Assembly (NCBI GenBank): GCA_028820845.1
Contig: JAPPII010000038.1
Location: forward strand, 1 to 45,859
From: Candidatus Poribacteria bacterium
Lineage (GTDB): Bacteria; Poribacteria; WGA-4E; WGA-3G
Direction of reading: 5' to 3'
Length of the DNA stretch: 45,859 nucleotides
The notes under the pieces are model-generated. The model saw only the letters and a program-made list of their open reading frames with translations, searched no databases and had not been told where the DNA came from. The stretch's first letter is position 1. Each line of letters starts with the position of its first letter. The position numbers and the translations under genes are program-made. This document shows, piece by piece, positions 8,065 through 25,667 of the stretch.

Positions 8065-8261
8065 ATAGCCATCAGCATTGGCCCGCAAGTCCACACGCGA
8101 CTTGCGTAGGTCGCTACGCTTTGGATTTCCATCAGCACACTTCACTTTCGATTTCCGTCAACAAAGACGCAAGCGTTACCCGGTGAATGCCATAAGGCAT
8201 TCATACCGTTGATTACACCTCTTTTTCTTTACTGACCGCTGACTGCTGATCGCTGACCGCT
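8065..8261. repeat. Intergenic composite of dispersed repeats
   Basis: Holds several repeats shared with 22380-22562: the 15-mer AGGTCGCTACGCTTT (about 8107-8121), an ACAAAGACGCAAGCGTTACC block (8161-8180), and a 33-base segment (8182-8214) whose exact reverse complement is 22412-22444. The 33-mer contains the hairpin GAATGCC-ATAA-GGCATTC. The end (8230-8262) is a run of GCTGACNGCTGA-like units directly before the flippase start. Copies in both orientations suggest a mobile or recombining repeat family without coding capacity. Confidence 0.8.
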
Positions 8262-22040: not shown

Positions 22041-22069
22041 TTGCAATTTTCCAGTATGTATGATAGAAT
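22041..22069 (+). promoter_or_regulatory. Putative sigma-70-type promoter of the selenoprotein gene
   Basis: TTGCAA (22041-22046), a 17-nt spacer, then TAGAAT (22064-22069). The spacing is ideal and the -10 box matches 5 of 6. It would give a leader of about 60 nt to the ATG at 22137. Confidence 0.5.
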
Positions 22070-22136
22070 TTTAAAAGGAACAATTGAATTCAGTTTGACA
22101 GATAAAGTCAAAAAATGAATGAGGAGGGAAATCCCC

Positions 22137-22370
22137 ATGGAAGTGAGAATTGAATACTGCACCGCTTGAAACTACCAGCCACGGGCAGCCAGTTTGGCAG
22201 ATGCCTTGAAACAGAAATATGGTGCCGGGGTTATAACTGTCGATTTAATTCCGGGTAGCGGTGGGGCTTTTGAAGTTTCGTTAAACGGAACACTGCTCTA
22301 TTCAAAATTAAAAACCAGAGAGTTTCCGACGACAGAGCAGATAACAAGTGCTATAGACGCAGCAGCGTAA
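22137..22370 (+). CDS. SelW/Rdx-family selenoprotein with in-frame TGA (CxxU)
   Basis: A 77-residue protein if the TGA at 22167-22169 is read as selenocysteine: it begins MEVRIEYCTAU and continues NYQPRAASLADALKQKYG, then PGSGGAFEV near 39-47, LLYSKLK and a final FPTTEQI helix. This is the thioredoxin-like Rdx fold (SelW, SelT, SelH group) with Cys8 and Sec11 as the redox pair, and the conserved GGxFEV follows as expected. GAGGAGGG lies 8 nt before the ATG, a good ribosome site. The frame stays open from the TGA to TAA at 22368, and a SECIS-like stem-loop follows the TGA. Read as a stop, the product would be only 10 residues. No selA, selB, selD or tRNA-Sec is in the window, so the machinery must lie elsewhere. 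Confidence 0.88.
22183..22206 (+). promoter_or_regulatory. Putative bacterial SECIS stem-loop
   Basis: Immediately downstream of the in-frame TGA the RNA can fold with GGGCA (22183-22187) paired to TGCCT (22202-22206, outer pair G-U) and GCCA (22188-22191) paired to TGGC (22195-22198), with a 3-nt bulge AGA on the 3' side and the apical loop GTT. The loop begins 22 nt after the TGA and its first base is G. Both agree with the known bacterial SECIS rules (loop about 16-37 nt from the UGA, a G in the first two loop positions). The fold was drawn by hand. Confidence 0.7.
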
Positions 22371-22379
22371 TGGCTATAT

Positions 22380-22562
22380 AGCCGTCAGGTCGCTACGCTT
22401 TCAGTGGTCAGAATCAACGGTATGAATGCCTTATGGCATTCACCGGGGTTCTCCGAAACCCTTTCAGCGATCAGTAAAGAAAAGAGATATGCGGTAACGC
22501 TCGCGTCTTTGCTGACTGCTGAAAGGATTGCGTAGCAATCCGTGCTGACTGTTGATTGCTGA
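22380..22562. repeat. Composite of dispersed repeats, partly inverted copy of 8065-8261
   Basis: 22412-22444 is the exact reverse complement of 8182-8214 (33 bases), including the GAATGCC/GGCATTC hairpin. GGTAACGCTCGCGTCTTTG (about 22493-22511) mirrors the block at 8161-8180, and GCTGACTGCTGA units continue to the end of lpxI. The 96-codon minus-strand frame across this region is made of these repeats and is not a gene. Confidence 0.8.
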
Positions 22563-22565
22563 TAG

Positions 22566-23369
22566 CTATTCCACAGCAACAATTGCGATCTTACACCGAT
22601 CTGCTTTCTTGACAAGCACATCAACGTCCATAACGAAAGTTCGTCGTGCTTCCACCGCCAGGACACTCGCTTCAACCTGATGCAACACCTTTAGCGTTTG
22701 CATCCCGACCGTTGGCACATCAACACGGAAATCGTGATGCTCCGCTGATGCCTTCGCAACCACAACTCCCTTCTTCCCCAAGTTGCCACCTCTTTGAATC
22801 GTTATATCCGTCCCTTCAATGGCTTCCATAGCGAGCACAATCTGATTTTTAACGACAACCGTCTGCCCGATATCCATGTTTGCTATCTGGCGGGCGGTCC
22901 GAATACCGAGTTCAACATCTGCCCATTGATTCGTTGTCGGTTGTCGCGCCGTTAAAACGCCGGGTTGTGGGAGAAGATGGTGGAGGTACTGATCTTGGGT
23001 GAGGACTGTCAGTCCAACGGATTCAAGATAGGTAAGTGCAGCGTTAACAATCGCGGAGGGTCTTTTACGTCGGTTCTGTACTAAAATCCTGATGGTGGTC
23101 GCATCAATCTGGAAGGGGCGGAGTAGAATATTTTTTTCGACTTTCCCGATAATCACAACTTCTTTTACGCCTGAATCAAGAAGCGTCCGAGCAATCTTTT
23201 GAATCTGACCAACGCCATAAGTGTAAAGTTCATCTGTGATCCCAGCAAAACGCTGCGCGTAGGACTTCGTAATTTGGATGATAACAGGTTGTCGTTCATG
23301 AGCAACAGCGGCACGTGCCAACAGCACCGGCAGCTCGCCTGCGCCTGCAATAATACCGAGTTTTTTCAT
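22566..23369 (-). CDS. lpxI: UDP-2,3-diacylglucosamine pyrophosphatase LpxI
   Basis: 267 residues, the normal length of LpxI (DUF1009). It hydrolyses UDP-2,3-diacylglucosamine to lipid X in the cytoplasm, the step done by LpxH in other bacteria. Visible family marks are the N-terminal LGIIAGAGELPVLLA, TQDQYLHHLLPQPGVLT in the middle, and the C-terminal IEGTDITIQRGG and VPTVGMQTL segments. It is the last gene of the minus-strand lipid A run, 14 nt after lpxA. No lpxH or lpxG is seen. Confidence 0.93.
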   Translation of the reverse strand: MKKLGIIAGAGELPVLLARAAVAHERQPVIIQITKSYAQRFAGITDELYTYGVGQIQKIARTLLDSGVKEVVIIGKVEKNILLRPFQIDATTIRILVQNRRKRPSAIVNAALTYLESVGLTVLTQDQYLHHLLPQPGVLTARQPTTNQWADVELGIRTARQIANMDIGQTVVVKNQIVLAMEAIEGTDITIQRGGNLGKKGVVVAKASAEHHDFRVDVPTVGMQTLKVLHQVEASVLAVEARRTFVMDVDVLVKKADRCKIAIVAVE

Positions 23370-23383
23370 CTTTTAATTTAGAT

Positions 23384-24208
23384 TTAATCGTTAAAAAAAC
23401 GATTCGGTTGGCTAAATCCGATGCCACGTTTAGAAGTCTCGATAAATTGGAGTAGATATTCAACTTCAGGGGTCGTTTCGAGCTCCTCCTTGACTCTGGT
23501 GACAGCATGTCTGAGCGGGAGTCCTGAGCGGAACAGAATACGAAACGCTTTTTTGAGTGCCGCCAGCACTTCAGGCGTGAGTTGGGATAAAGGATTAATC
23601 CTTGATGTCCGAATTCCAATCTGGTTGAGACTCCGCACCCGCGCCGGTTGTCCAGCAGAAAGCGCGAACGGCGGAATATCTTGAACAATCTTCGAGAACC
23701 CACCTGCCATTGCCATCTTACCGACGCGGACATACTGATGCAACGCCGCATGCGCTCCCAATCGAACATCATCTTCAATCACAACATGCCCGGCAAGTGA
23801 GACAAAGTTCGCCATAATTGTCCGATTCCCGACGATAGTGTCGTGCGCAAGGTTAACCCAATTCATTAATAGATTGTTGTCCCCAACGACAGTCGCCCCC
23901 TCCTCAAACGTTGATCTGGAAATAGAGACGTACTCACGAAGTGTATTGCGGTTGCCAATCTTGACGTAACTCCGCCAACCCCCGTATTTCAGGTCTTTAG
24001 ATTCATTACCGATGGTCGCCCCGAAGTAGATTTTGCATGCCTCACCGATAGTTGTCCACTTCTCAATCTGAACATGTGGACCAATCTCAGTGCCGCGCCC
24101 GATATGGACATCTTCACCGACAAGACTGTAGGGTCCAATCTTAACCCCTTCTTCCAATGTCGCTTTTGGAGAGATAATAGCCGTAGGGTGAATGTTAGTT
24201 TCTATCAC
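23384..24208 (-). CDS. lpxA: UDP-N-acetylglucosamine acyltransferase LpxA
   Basis: 274 residues, the usual LpxA size. Left-handed beta-helix hexapeptide repeats begin at IHPTAIISPKATLEEGVKIGPY, and the C-terminal helical part is present (ALKKAFRILFRSGLPLRHAV). The catalytic His is in the segment NWVNLAHDTIVGN and the helix loop has GGFSKIVQDIPPF. It adds the first acyl chain to UDP-GlcNAc. Translation starts at GTG with AGGAGGG 8 nt upstream, and the protein starts with the family's typical IHPTA, so the start is firm. Operon: between lpxC/fabZ and lpxI. Confidence 0.95.
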   Translation of the reverse strand: MIETNIHPTAIISPKATLEEGVKIGPYSLVGEDVHIGRGTEIGPHVQIEKWTTIGEACKIYFGATIGNESKDLKYGGWRSYVKIGNRNTLREYVSISRSTFEEGATVVGDNNLLMNWVNLAHDTIVGNRTIMANFVSLAGHVVIEDDVRLGAHAALHQYVRVGKMAMAGGFSKIVQDIPPFALSAGQPARVRSLNQIGIRTSRINPLSQLTPEVLAALKKAFRILFRSGLPLRHAVTRVKEELETTPEVEYLLQFIETSKRGIGFSQPNRFFND

Positions 24209-24300
24209 AAAATTTCCCTCCTAATCTCGCCATCCCATACAAAAAGGTCTGCCAGTTAATCTTATAGTAGATTTTAGAATTAATTTCACACGTCGCATCA

Positions 24301-24325
24301 GTGCGGTTAGAAACCGCACCTACCG
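24301..24325. repeat. Dispersed palindromic repeat, copy 2
   Basis: Identical over 25 bases to 11-35 (GTGCGGTT-AGA-AACCGCAC plus CTACCG). It sits in the 172-nt gap between lpxC/fabZ and lpxA, where it may influence the transcript, since it can form an 8-bp hairpin. Confidence 0.85.
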
Positions 24326-24380
24326 CGGGTGTTTGAGAATGTAATGTATTTACGGAATCTACTATAATAAGGACTACGGT

Positions 24381-25667
24381 TCAAACAGACGCTAATACGA
24401 TTGAGAGCTCCGCCTCTGTAGCAAGTTGGTCTCCGACATAAACGCGCCCTTCGATGCGTGCAATCCTGCTCCTTAACTGCGCCACCTCTATCTCCAACCG
24501 AAGCTGATCCCCCGGAATAACAGCACGACGAAATGTTGCCTTGCTGATGGAGCGAAAATAGCCGAGTTCACCTTCTTTACCGATGTCCCGTAGCACCAAC
24601 CACGCCGCAAGTTGCGCAAGTGCTTCAATCTGCAGCACGCCCGGCATCACAGGCTGTGTGGGGAAATGTCCTTCAAAAATAGGCTCGTTATACGTCACAT
24701 TCTTGATACCGACAGCGCGTTTTTTGCTCTCATATTCAATGACCCTATCGACCATACACATCGGATGGCGGTGCGGTAACACCTCATAAATATCCATCAC
24801 CTCAATAGGTTCTTGAACGGGTACCTGTTGAAGATGTCCAGCTTCAGCAAGCGCCTGTACAAATTCAGCGTGGAACGTATGTCCCGTCCGCATGGCGATA
24901 ACTTGTGCCTTCGGCAGACGACCCGCCAAATAAAGATCCCCAATCAAATCAAGGATTTTGTGTCGGACAAACTCATCTTCAAATCGGAGCGGTGTACTCG
25001 GTTCACCCATCTCATTGATAACAAGGACGTTATCATAACTTGCCCCCTTACCGATACCGAGTGCCTGAAGTGCTTCAATTTCATTCTCAAAACAGAAACT
25101 CCGAGCCGGTGCAATATCAGAGGCATAAGACTCAGGAGTTATCTCAAGGGTTAAGACTTGGGGGTTGGTTTGTGGATGCGCATAAACAAAAGTTATCTCC
25201 AGTGCGTCAGCCGGAAGTAAAACGAGCTGCCTATCCTCAGTGGAAAGTGAAAACGGCTCATCAACCTCAATAAAGTCGCGTTGGGCATCTTGTGGAACAA
25301 GCCCCACCGCCTGAATATCTTCAACATACCGACCCGCGCCACCATCAAGCCCCGGCGGCTCTGGTGCGTCTAATTCGATTATTACGTTATCAACACCTAA
25401 GCCACCAAGCGCAGAGAGGATATGTTCCACACTGCTAACGGTTGCCTCACCACTGCGTAAACTGGTACATCGCGGCAGAATATCTGCCCAATTTTCGGGA
25501 CACACCTTTATCTCTGGTGCGTCCGCCATATCTACACGCCGAAAGACAATCCCAGAGTCCGCCGCTGCGGGTTTCAAAGTCAATGTTACAGGTTCCCCTA
25601 ACATCAACCCTTTTCCCGTAATCGTTATCTCATTCTGAATTGTCTGCTGTGAATCTGCCTTTGCCAT
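24381..25667 (-). CDS. lpxC-fabZ: Bifunctional LpxC deacetylase / FabZ dehydratase
   Basis: 428 residues, a fusion of two enzymes. Residues 1-280 are LpxC, the committed step of lipid A synthesis: SSVEHILSALGGLGVDN carries the zinc His and catalytic Glu, HKILDLIGDLYLAGRLP the second His and the Asp, and RTGHTFHAEF a further active-site His. In place of the usual GLH(T/S)G near the start it reads GLMLG. Residues 290-428 are FabZ (3-hydroxyacyl-ACP dehydratase): LPHRHPMCMVDRV with the catalytic His, and GHFPTQPVMPGVLQIEALAQ with the catalytic Glu. Such fusions are known from Bacteroidetes and some other Gram-negative phyla. It couples lipid A and fatty acid supply. Followed by lpxA. Confidence 0.93.
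   Translation of the reverse strand: MAKADSQQTIQNEITITGKGLMLGEPVTLTLKPAAADSGIVFRRVDMADAPEIKVCPENWADILPRCTSLRSGEATVSSVEHILSALGGLGVDNVIIELDAPEPPGLDGGAGRYVEDIQAVGLVPQDAQRDFIEVDEPFSLSTEDRQLVLLPADALEITFVYAHPQTNPQVLTLEITPESYASDIAPARSFCFENEIEALQALGIGKGASYDNVLVINEMGEPSTPLRFEDEFVRHKILDLIGDLYLAGRLPKAQVIAMRTGHTFHAEFVQALAEAGHLQQVPVQEPIEVMDIYEVLPHRHPMCMVDRVIEYESKKRAVGIKNVTYNEPIFEGHFPTQPVMPGVLQIEALAQLAAWLVLRDIGKEGELGYFRSISKATFRRAVIPGDQLRLEIEVAQLRSRIARIEGRVYVGDQLATEAELSIVLASV

Follow-up and report, generated by a model that had tools for sequence, protein, structure and literature searches.

The stretch of DNA analysed here (the window; 45,859 nucleotides from a sponge-associated Candidatus Poribacteria bacterium) contains what we read, with a probability of about 0.97, as a functional single-gene unit for a SelW-like selenoprotein of the Rdx family, in which UGA codon 11 would be decoded as selenocysteine (Sec). 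The evidence visible in the sequence is family membership, conservation of the TGA, the Sec machinery of the genome, constraint on a hairpin just downstream and conservation of the promoter. The features are listed in Table 1.

A SelW-like frame with one in-frame TGA

The frame opens at ATG 22137 and closes with TAA at 22368-22370, and the TGA at codon 11 is its sole break in 77 codons, exactly as laid out in the preliminary description. Read through, it gives MEVRIEYCTAUNYQPRAASLADALKQKYGAGVITVDLIPGSGGAFEVSLNGTLLYSKLKTREFPTTEQITSAIDAAA, where CTAU (residues 8-11) is followed by GGAFEV (42-47), the motif pair of Rdx/SelW proteins. That description had assigned the product to the SelW/Rdx family from CTAU and GGxFEV, and profile searches agreed: Pfam Rdx (PF10262) matched over the whole length (profile 1-73 of 74, E=1e-24, 87 bits vs a cut-off of 22.6), and the NCBIfam profiles SelTWH_Campy (E=2.9e-25) and CXXU_selWTH (E=6.1e-21) were matched above their cut-offs, TIGR02174 with 74.5 bits against 34.2. 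Solved SelW-like chains were matched as well (2fa8 at 4.6e-11 and selenoprotein W, 2npb, at 2.3e-4), and by similarity to these members the product would adopt a thioredoxin-like fold. The genome (5.69 Mb, 125 contigs, 95.5% complete) has no second Rdx gene, and this one is interrupted by that single TGA alone. The nearest public loci, at 97-99% protein identity, belong to Candidatus Poribacteria metagenome assemblies.

The codon found at the Sec position in relatives had been proposed as a check, any sense codon other than Cys or Sec counting against the reading. Codon 11 was TGA in 64 of 65 public loci and TGC in the remaining one, and no other codon occurred. All 36 poribacterial loci carried TGA, as did 28 of the 29 from other bacteria (Rossellomorea, Gemmatimonadota, Acidobacteriota, Chloroflexota, Planctomycetota, Binataceae and others); the single TGC was that of Defluviimonas L080. 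The sample was unselected for TGA because the peptide patterns of the scan excluded residue 11. Homologues thus have Cys or Sec opposite the in-frame TGA, as expected of a bacterial selenoprotein. In the phylum at large, an Rdx match was detected in 78 of 85 genomes, and in all 78 a single in-frame TGA was the only stop within the frame; for these matches it is the number of TGAs that was counted, the position at codon 11 having been confirmed in the fetched loci. In a single genome, a decayed selW whose active-site codon had mutated to a stop would also show an in-frame TGA, but here the TGA and the intact frame around it are kept in 78/78 phylum matches and in other phyla, frameshifts and second stops are absent, and the promoter and ribosome site are retained. 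The phylum-wide conservation of the TGA rules out such a pseudogene for practical purposes.

Table 1. Position of the selW-like gene, its signals and other genes mentioned in the text (window coordinates unless a contig or locus is named).
Feature	Position	Strand	Remarks
selW-like (Rdx family) selenoprotein gene	22137..22370	+	77 residues; CTAU redox motif
In-frame TGA, read as selenocysteine	22167..22169	+	TGA conservation in relatives
Bacterial SECIS-type hairpin, GGGCAGCCA-GUU-UGGC-AGA-UGCCU	22183..22206	+	predicted fold, synonymous constraint, covariation
Sigma-70-type promoter, TTGCAA-17-TAGAAT, TG before second hexamer	22041..22069	+	consensus scan, conservation
Ribosome-binding site GAGGAGG	about 22121-22127	+	read directly; retained in poribacterial orthologues
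lpxI, lpxA-like acyltransferase, lpxC-fabZ fusion, in a row	22566-25667		lipid A synthesis cluster adjoining selW, kept in close relatives
selD	L017:1483-2526		in-frame TGA at codon 17, VKCAGUASKL
Peroxiredoxin-like domain L086	C5:39097-39468		TGA at GGUTAE
Peroxiredoxin-like domain L087	C5:38650-39018		TGA at TGUTAE
Peroxiredoxin-like domain L089	C31:24333-24707		TGA at WUPFC
AhpD-like gene L092	C4:69049-69234		CHYU

Selenocysteine machinery and a SECIS-type hairpin

The preliminary description had held that the lineage makes selenocysteine and had named the Sec machinery as what to look for. All its parts, which a bacterial selenoprotein needs, are encoded in the genome: selA (593 bits, contig 3), selB (351 bits, contig 124), selD (363 bits, contig 123) and, immediately downstream of selB, a tRNA-Sec (78.1 bits vs a gathering score of 47) with anticodon TCA according to ARAGORN. 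Gene content thus favours Sec synthesis in this lineage. With an in-frame TGA of its own, selD would itself encode a Sec-containing SelD. Across the 85 phylum genomes, tRNA-Sec passed the strict cut in 72 and selA its cut-off in 72. In the same search two genomes (G003 and G004) lacked the Rdx gene, tRNA-Sec and selA together, as expected of Sec loss. A third (G061; 96% complete, 180 contigs) had the TGA-containing selW, and neither a full selA nor tRNA-Sec was found in it, presumably through an assembly gap rather than true partial loss.

A limited look at other selenoproteins, covering three families, returned six AhpC/TSA matches with one TGA each. In the three that were translated, the TGA stands at the catalytic position (DFTGGUTAE, DFGTGUTAE and GVWUPFCRD). 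Two of these domains are tandem neighbours on contig C5, separated by some 80 bases, and the remaining three one-TGA matches are on C99, C11 and C22. The AhpD-like gene, judging from its CHYU motif, likely encodes a selenoprotein.

If TGA stood for Trp, Gly or Cys, through code reassignment or general suppression, the selW frame would likewise be open. Against this, 9 of the 30 long stop-to-stop frames of the window end in TGA, the genome holds the whole Sec machinery, and further TGA codons occupy redox-active positions. Since TGA commonly ends frames here, reassignment is ruled out, with hardly any probability left to it; TGA therefore serves both as a stop and, with a SECIS, as Sec.

A hairpin is predicted shortly downstream of the selW TGA, its apical loop starting 22 nt after it and beginning with G, the arrangement looked for in bacterial selenoprotein genes. 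A G in the apical loop is a named feature of bacterial SECIS elements (PMC1088965). Among 32 distinct orthologues, synonymous diversity was 0.12 in codons 12-23 vs 0.36 downstream (Mann-Whitney p=2e-4), and Ser19 was always AGT and Leu20 always TTG, despite six possible codons for each. In 31 sequences from several phyla, 90.8% of the cells of the apical stem were paired. Double changes in this stem numbered 18, vs 4.5 in shuffles and 0-9 when the stem was slid; the sequences are related, so the shuffle counts are not probabilities, and the slid control preserves that relatedness. The stability of the poribacterial hairpin alone was unremarkable (z=-0.12 for 42 nt and -1.69 for a trimmed 26 nt). 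Because single-sequence folding is not significant by itself, the case for a SECIS rests on conservation and covariation. An Rfam scan of the window gave no match and hence no support for a SECIS. The poribacterial apical stem has 4 pairs followed by a 3-nt AGA bulge, and many other phyla have a continuous stem of 6-7 pairs. The putative SECIS, absent from the preliminary description, would supply the requirement that was missing for reading the TGA as Sec, a proposal of that description which the machinery, the TGA conservation and the hairpin now jointly favour.

Transcription, start site and gene neighbourhood

The selW-like gene would form a functional single-gene transcription unit with its own predicted promoter. 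The promoter-like pair and the good ribosome site described earlier were both recovered: the former was matched by the consensus scan, and of 35 poribacterial orthologues nearly all retained its motif, aAAAAA(C/T)TTGCAATTT...TGGTA(A/G)AAT, within a leader that otherwise diverged; the latter lies just upstream of the ATG. These signals also bear on the possibility that only a short product is made, either 58 residues from TTG 22194, lacking CxxU, or just the 10 residues that precede the TGA. A standard-code frame with a TTG start does exist at 22194-22370, but the ribosome site and the conserved ATG belong to 22137, and the N-terminal CTAU segment is conserved at the protein level. The TTG is itself conserved because it lies inside the SECIS hairpin. 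We consider a short product extremely improbable, and the full-length Sec-containing product is the preferred reading.

The gene is flanked by a short-chain dehydrogenase gene and DUF983 on one side and by lpxI-lpxA-lpxC on the other. These neighbours are retained in closer relatives, the dehydrogenase lying more than 1 kb further off in many; in three loci (L053-L055) none of them was matched within the fetched flanks. A functional link drawn from the neighbourhood was rejected, as selW, between the short-chain dehydrogenase gene and lpxI, has a promoter to itself, and no role in lipid A synthesis is proposed because it would be transcribed alone. The intergenic segment 22376-22565, between selW and lpxI, consists of dispersed, partly palindromic repeat pieces with 48 matches in the genome and includes a 37-nt inverted pair. 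Its most recurrent core, of 36-40 nt (about 22412-22447), also occurs at window positions 8179-8214.

Proposed mechanism and relation to known SelW proteins

We infer Sec insertion at codon 11 and redox activity of the product. In the proposed mechanism, SelA and SelD would make Sec-tRNA(Sec), SelB would deliver it to UGA codon 11, guided by the mRNA hairpin just downstream, and the ribosome at that codon would insert selenocysteine in place of stopping. The product would be a small thioredoxin-like domain, in which Cys8 and Sec11 of CTAU could form a reversible selenenylsulfide and carry out thiol redox chemistry. Family knowledge points the same way, a CTAU pair in a thioredoxin-like protein implying chemistry of this kind.

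Bacterial SelW-like proteins (PF10262; TIGR02174 / NF041051) share with the poribacterial one the small thioredoxin-like protein, CxxU and GGxFEV, as well as a TGA with a bacterial SECIS hairpin behind it, whose apical loop contains G. The poribacterial hairpin differs only in detail, its apical stem of 4 pairs having a 3-nt bulge beneath it. Eukaryotic selenoprotein W (2npb) belongs to the same family and has the same CxxU position, but its SECIS lies in the 3' UTR (PMC1088965), whereas the poribacterial one directly follows the UGA. Rdx proteins with Cys, such as 2fa8 (Atu0228) and L080 of Defluviimonas, are of the same family with CxxC; Cys replaces Sec, making a SECIS unneeded, and L080 has TGC for TGA.

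SelW-like proteins were the most abundant selenoproteins of the Sargasso Sea and Global Ocean Sampling (GOS) metagenome surveys (PMC1088965, PMC2398784). SelA and SelB were reported to co-occur in most sponge symbiont bins, from various phyla (PMC5649159), and SelW in Poribacteria is not described in that paper. The poribacterial selW was thus called correctly; probably under-annotated, it belongs to a known family, which among marine bacterial selenoproteins is the commonest. The frame left under the standard code is a 58-residue, TTG-start fragment, and mis-calling or omission by gene callers is therefore plausible. A bolder picture, which we hold to be improbable, is that a distinct poribacterial SECIS form (short apical stem, AGA bulge) co-evolved with SelB in a symbiont phylum whose thiol redox defence relies heavily on selenium, the SelW-like protein then having a symbiosis-related redox role.

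What is known of SelW and of Sec decoding stays as it was. In Poribacteria genomes this gene is easily overlooked, and the finding corrects its annotation; Sec decoding appears near-universal in the phylum, and the genome has several other selenoprotein genes.
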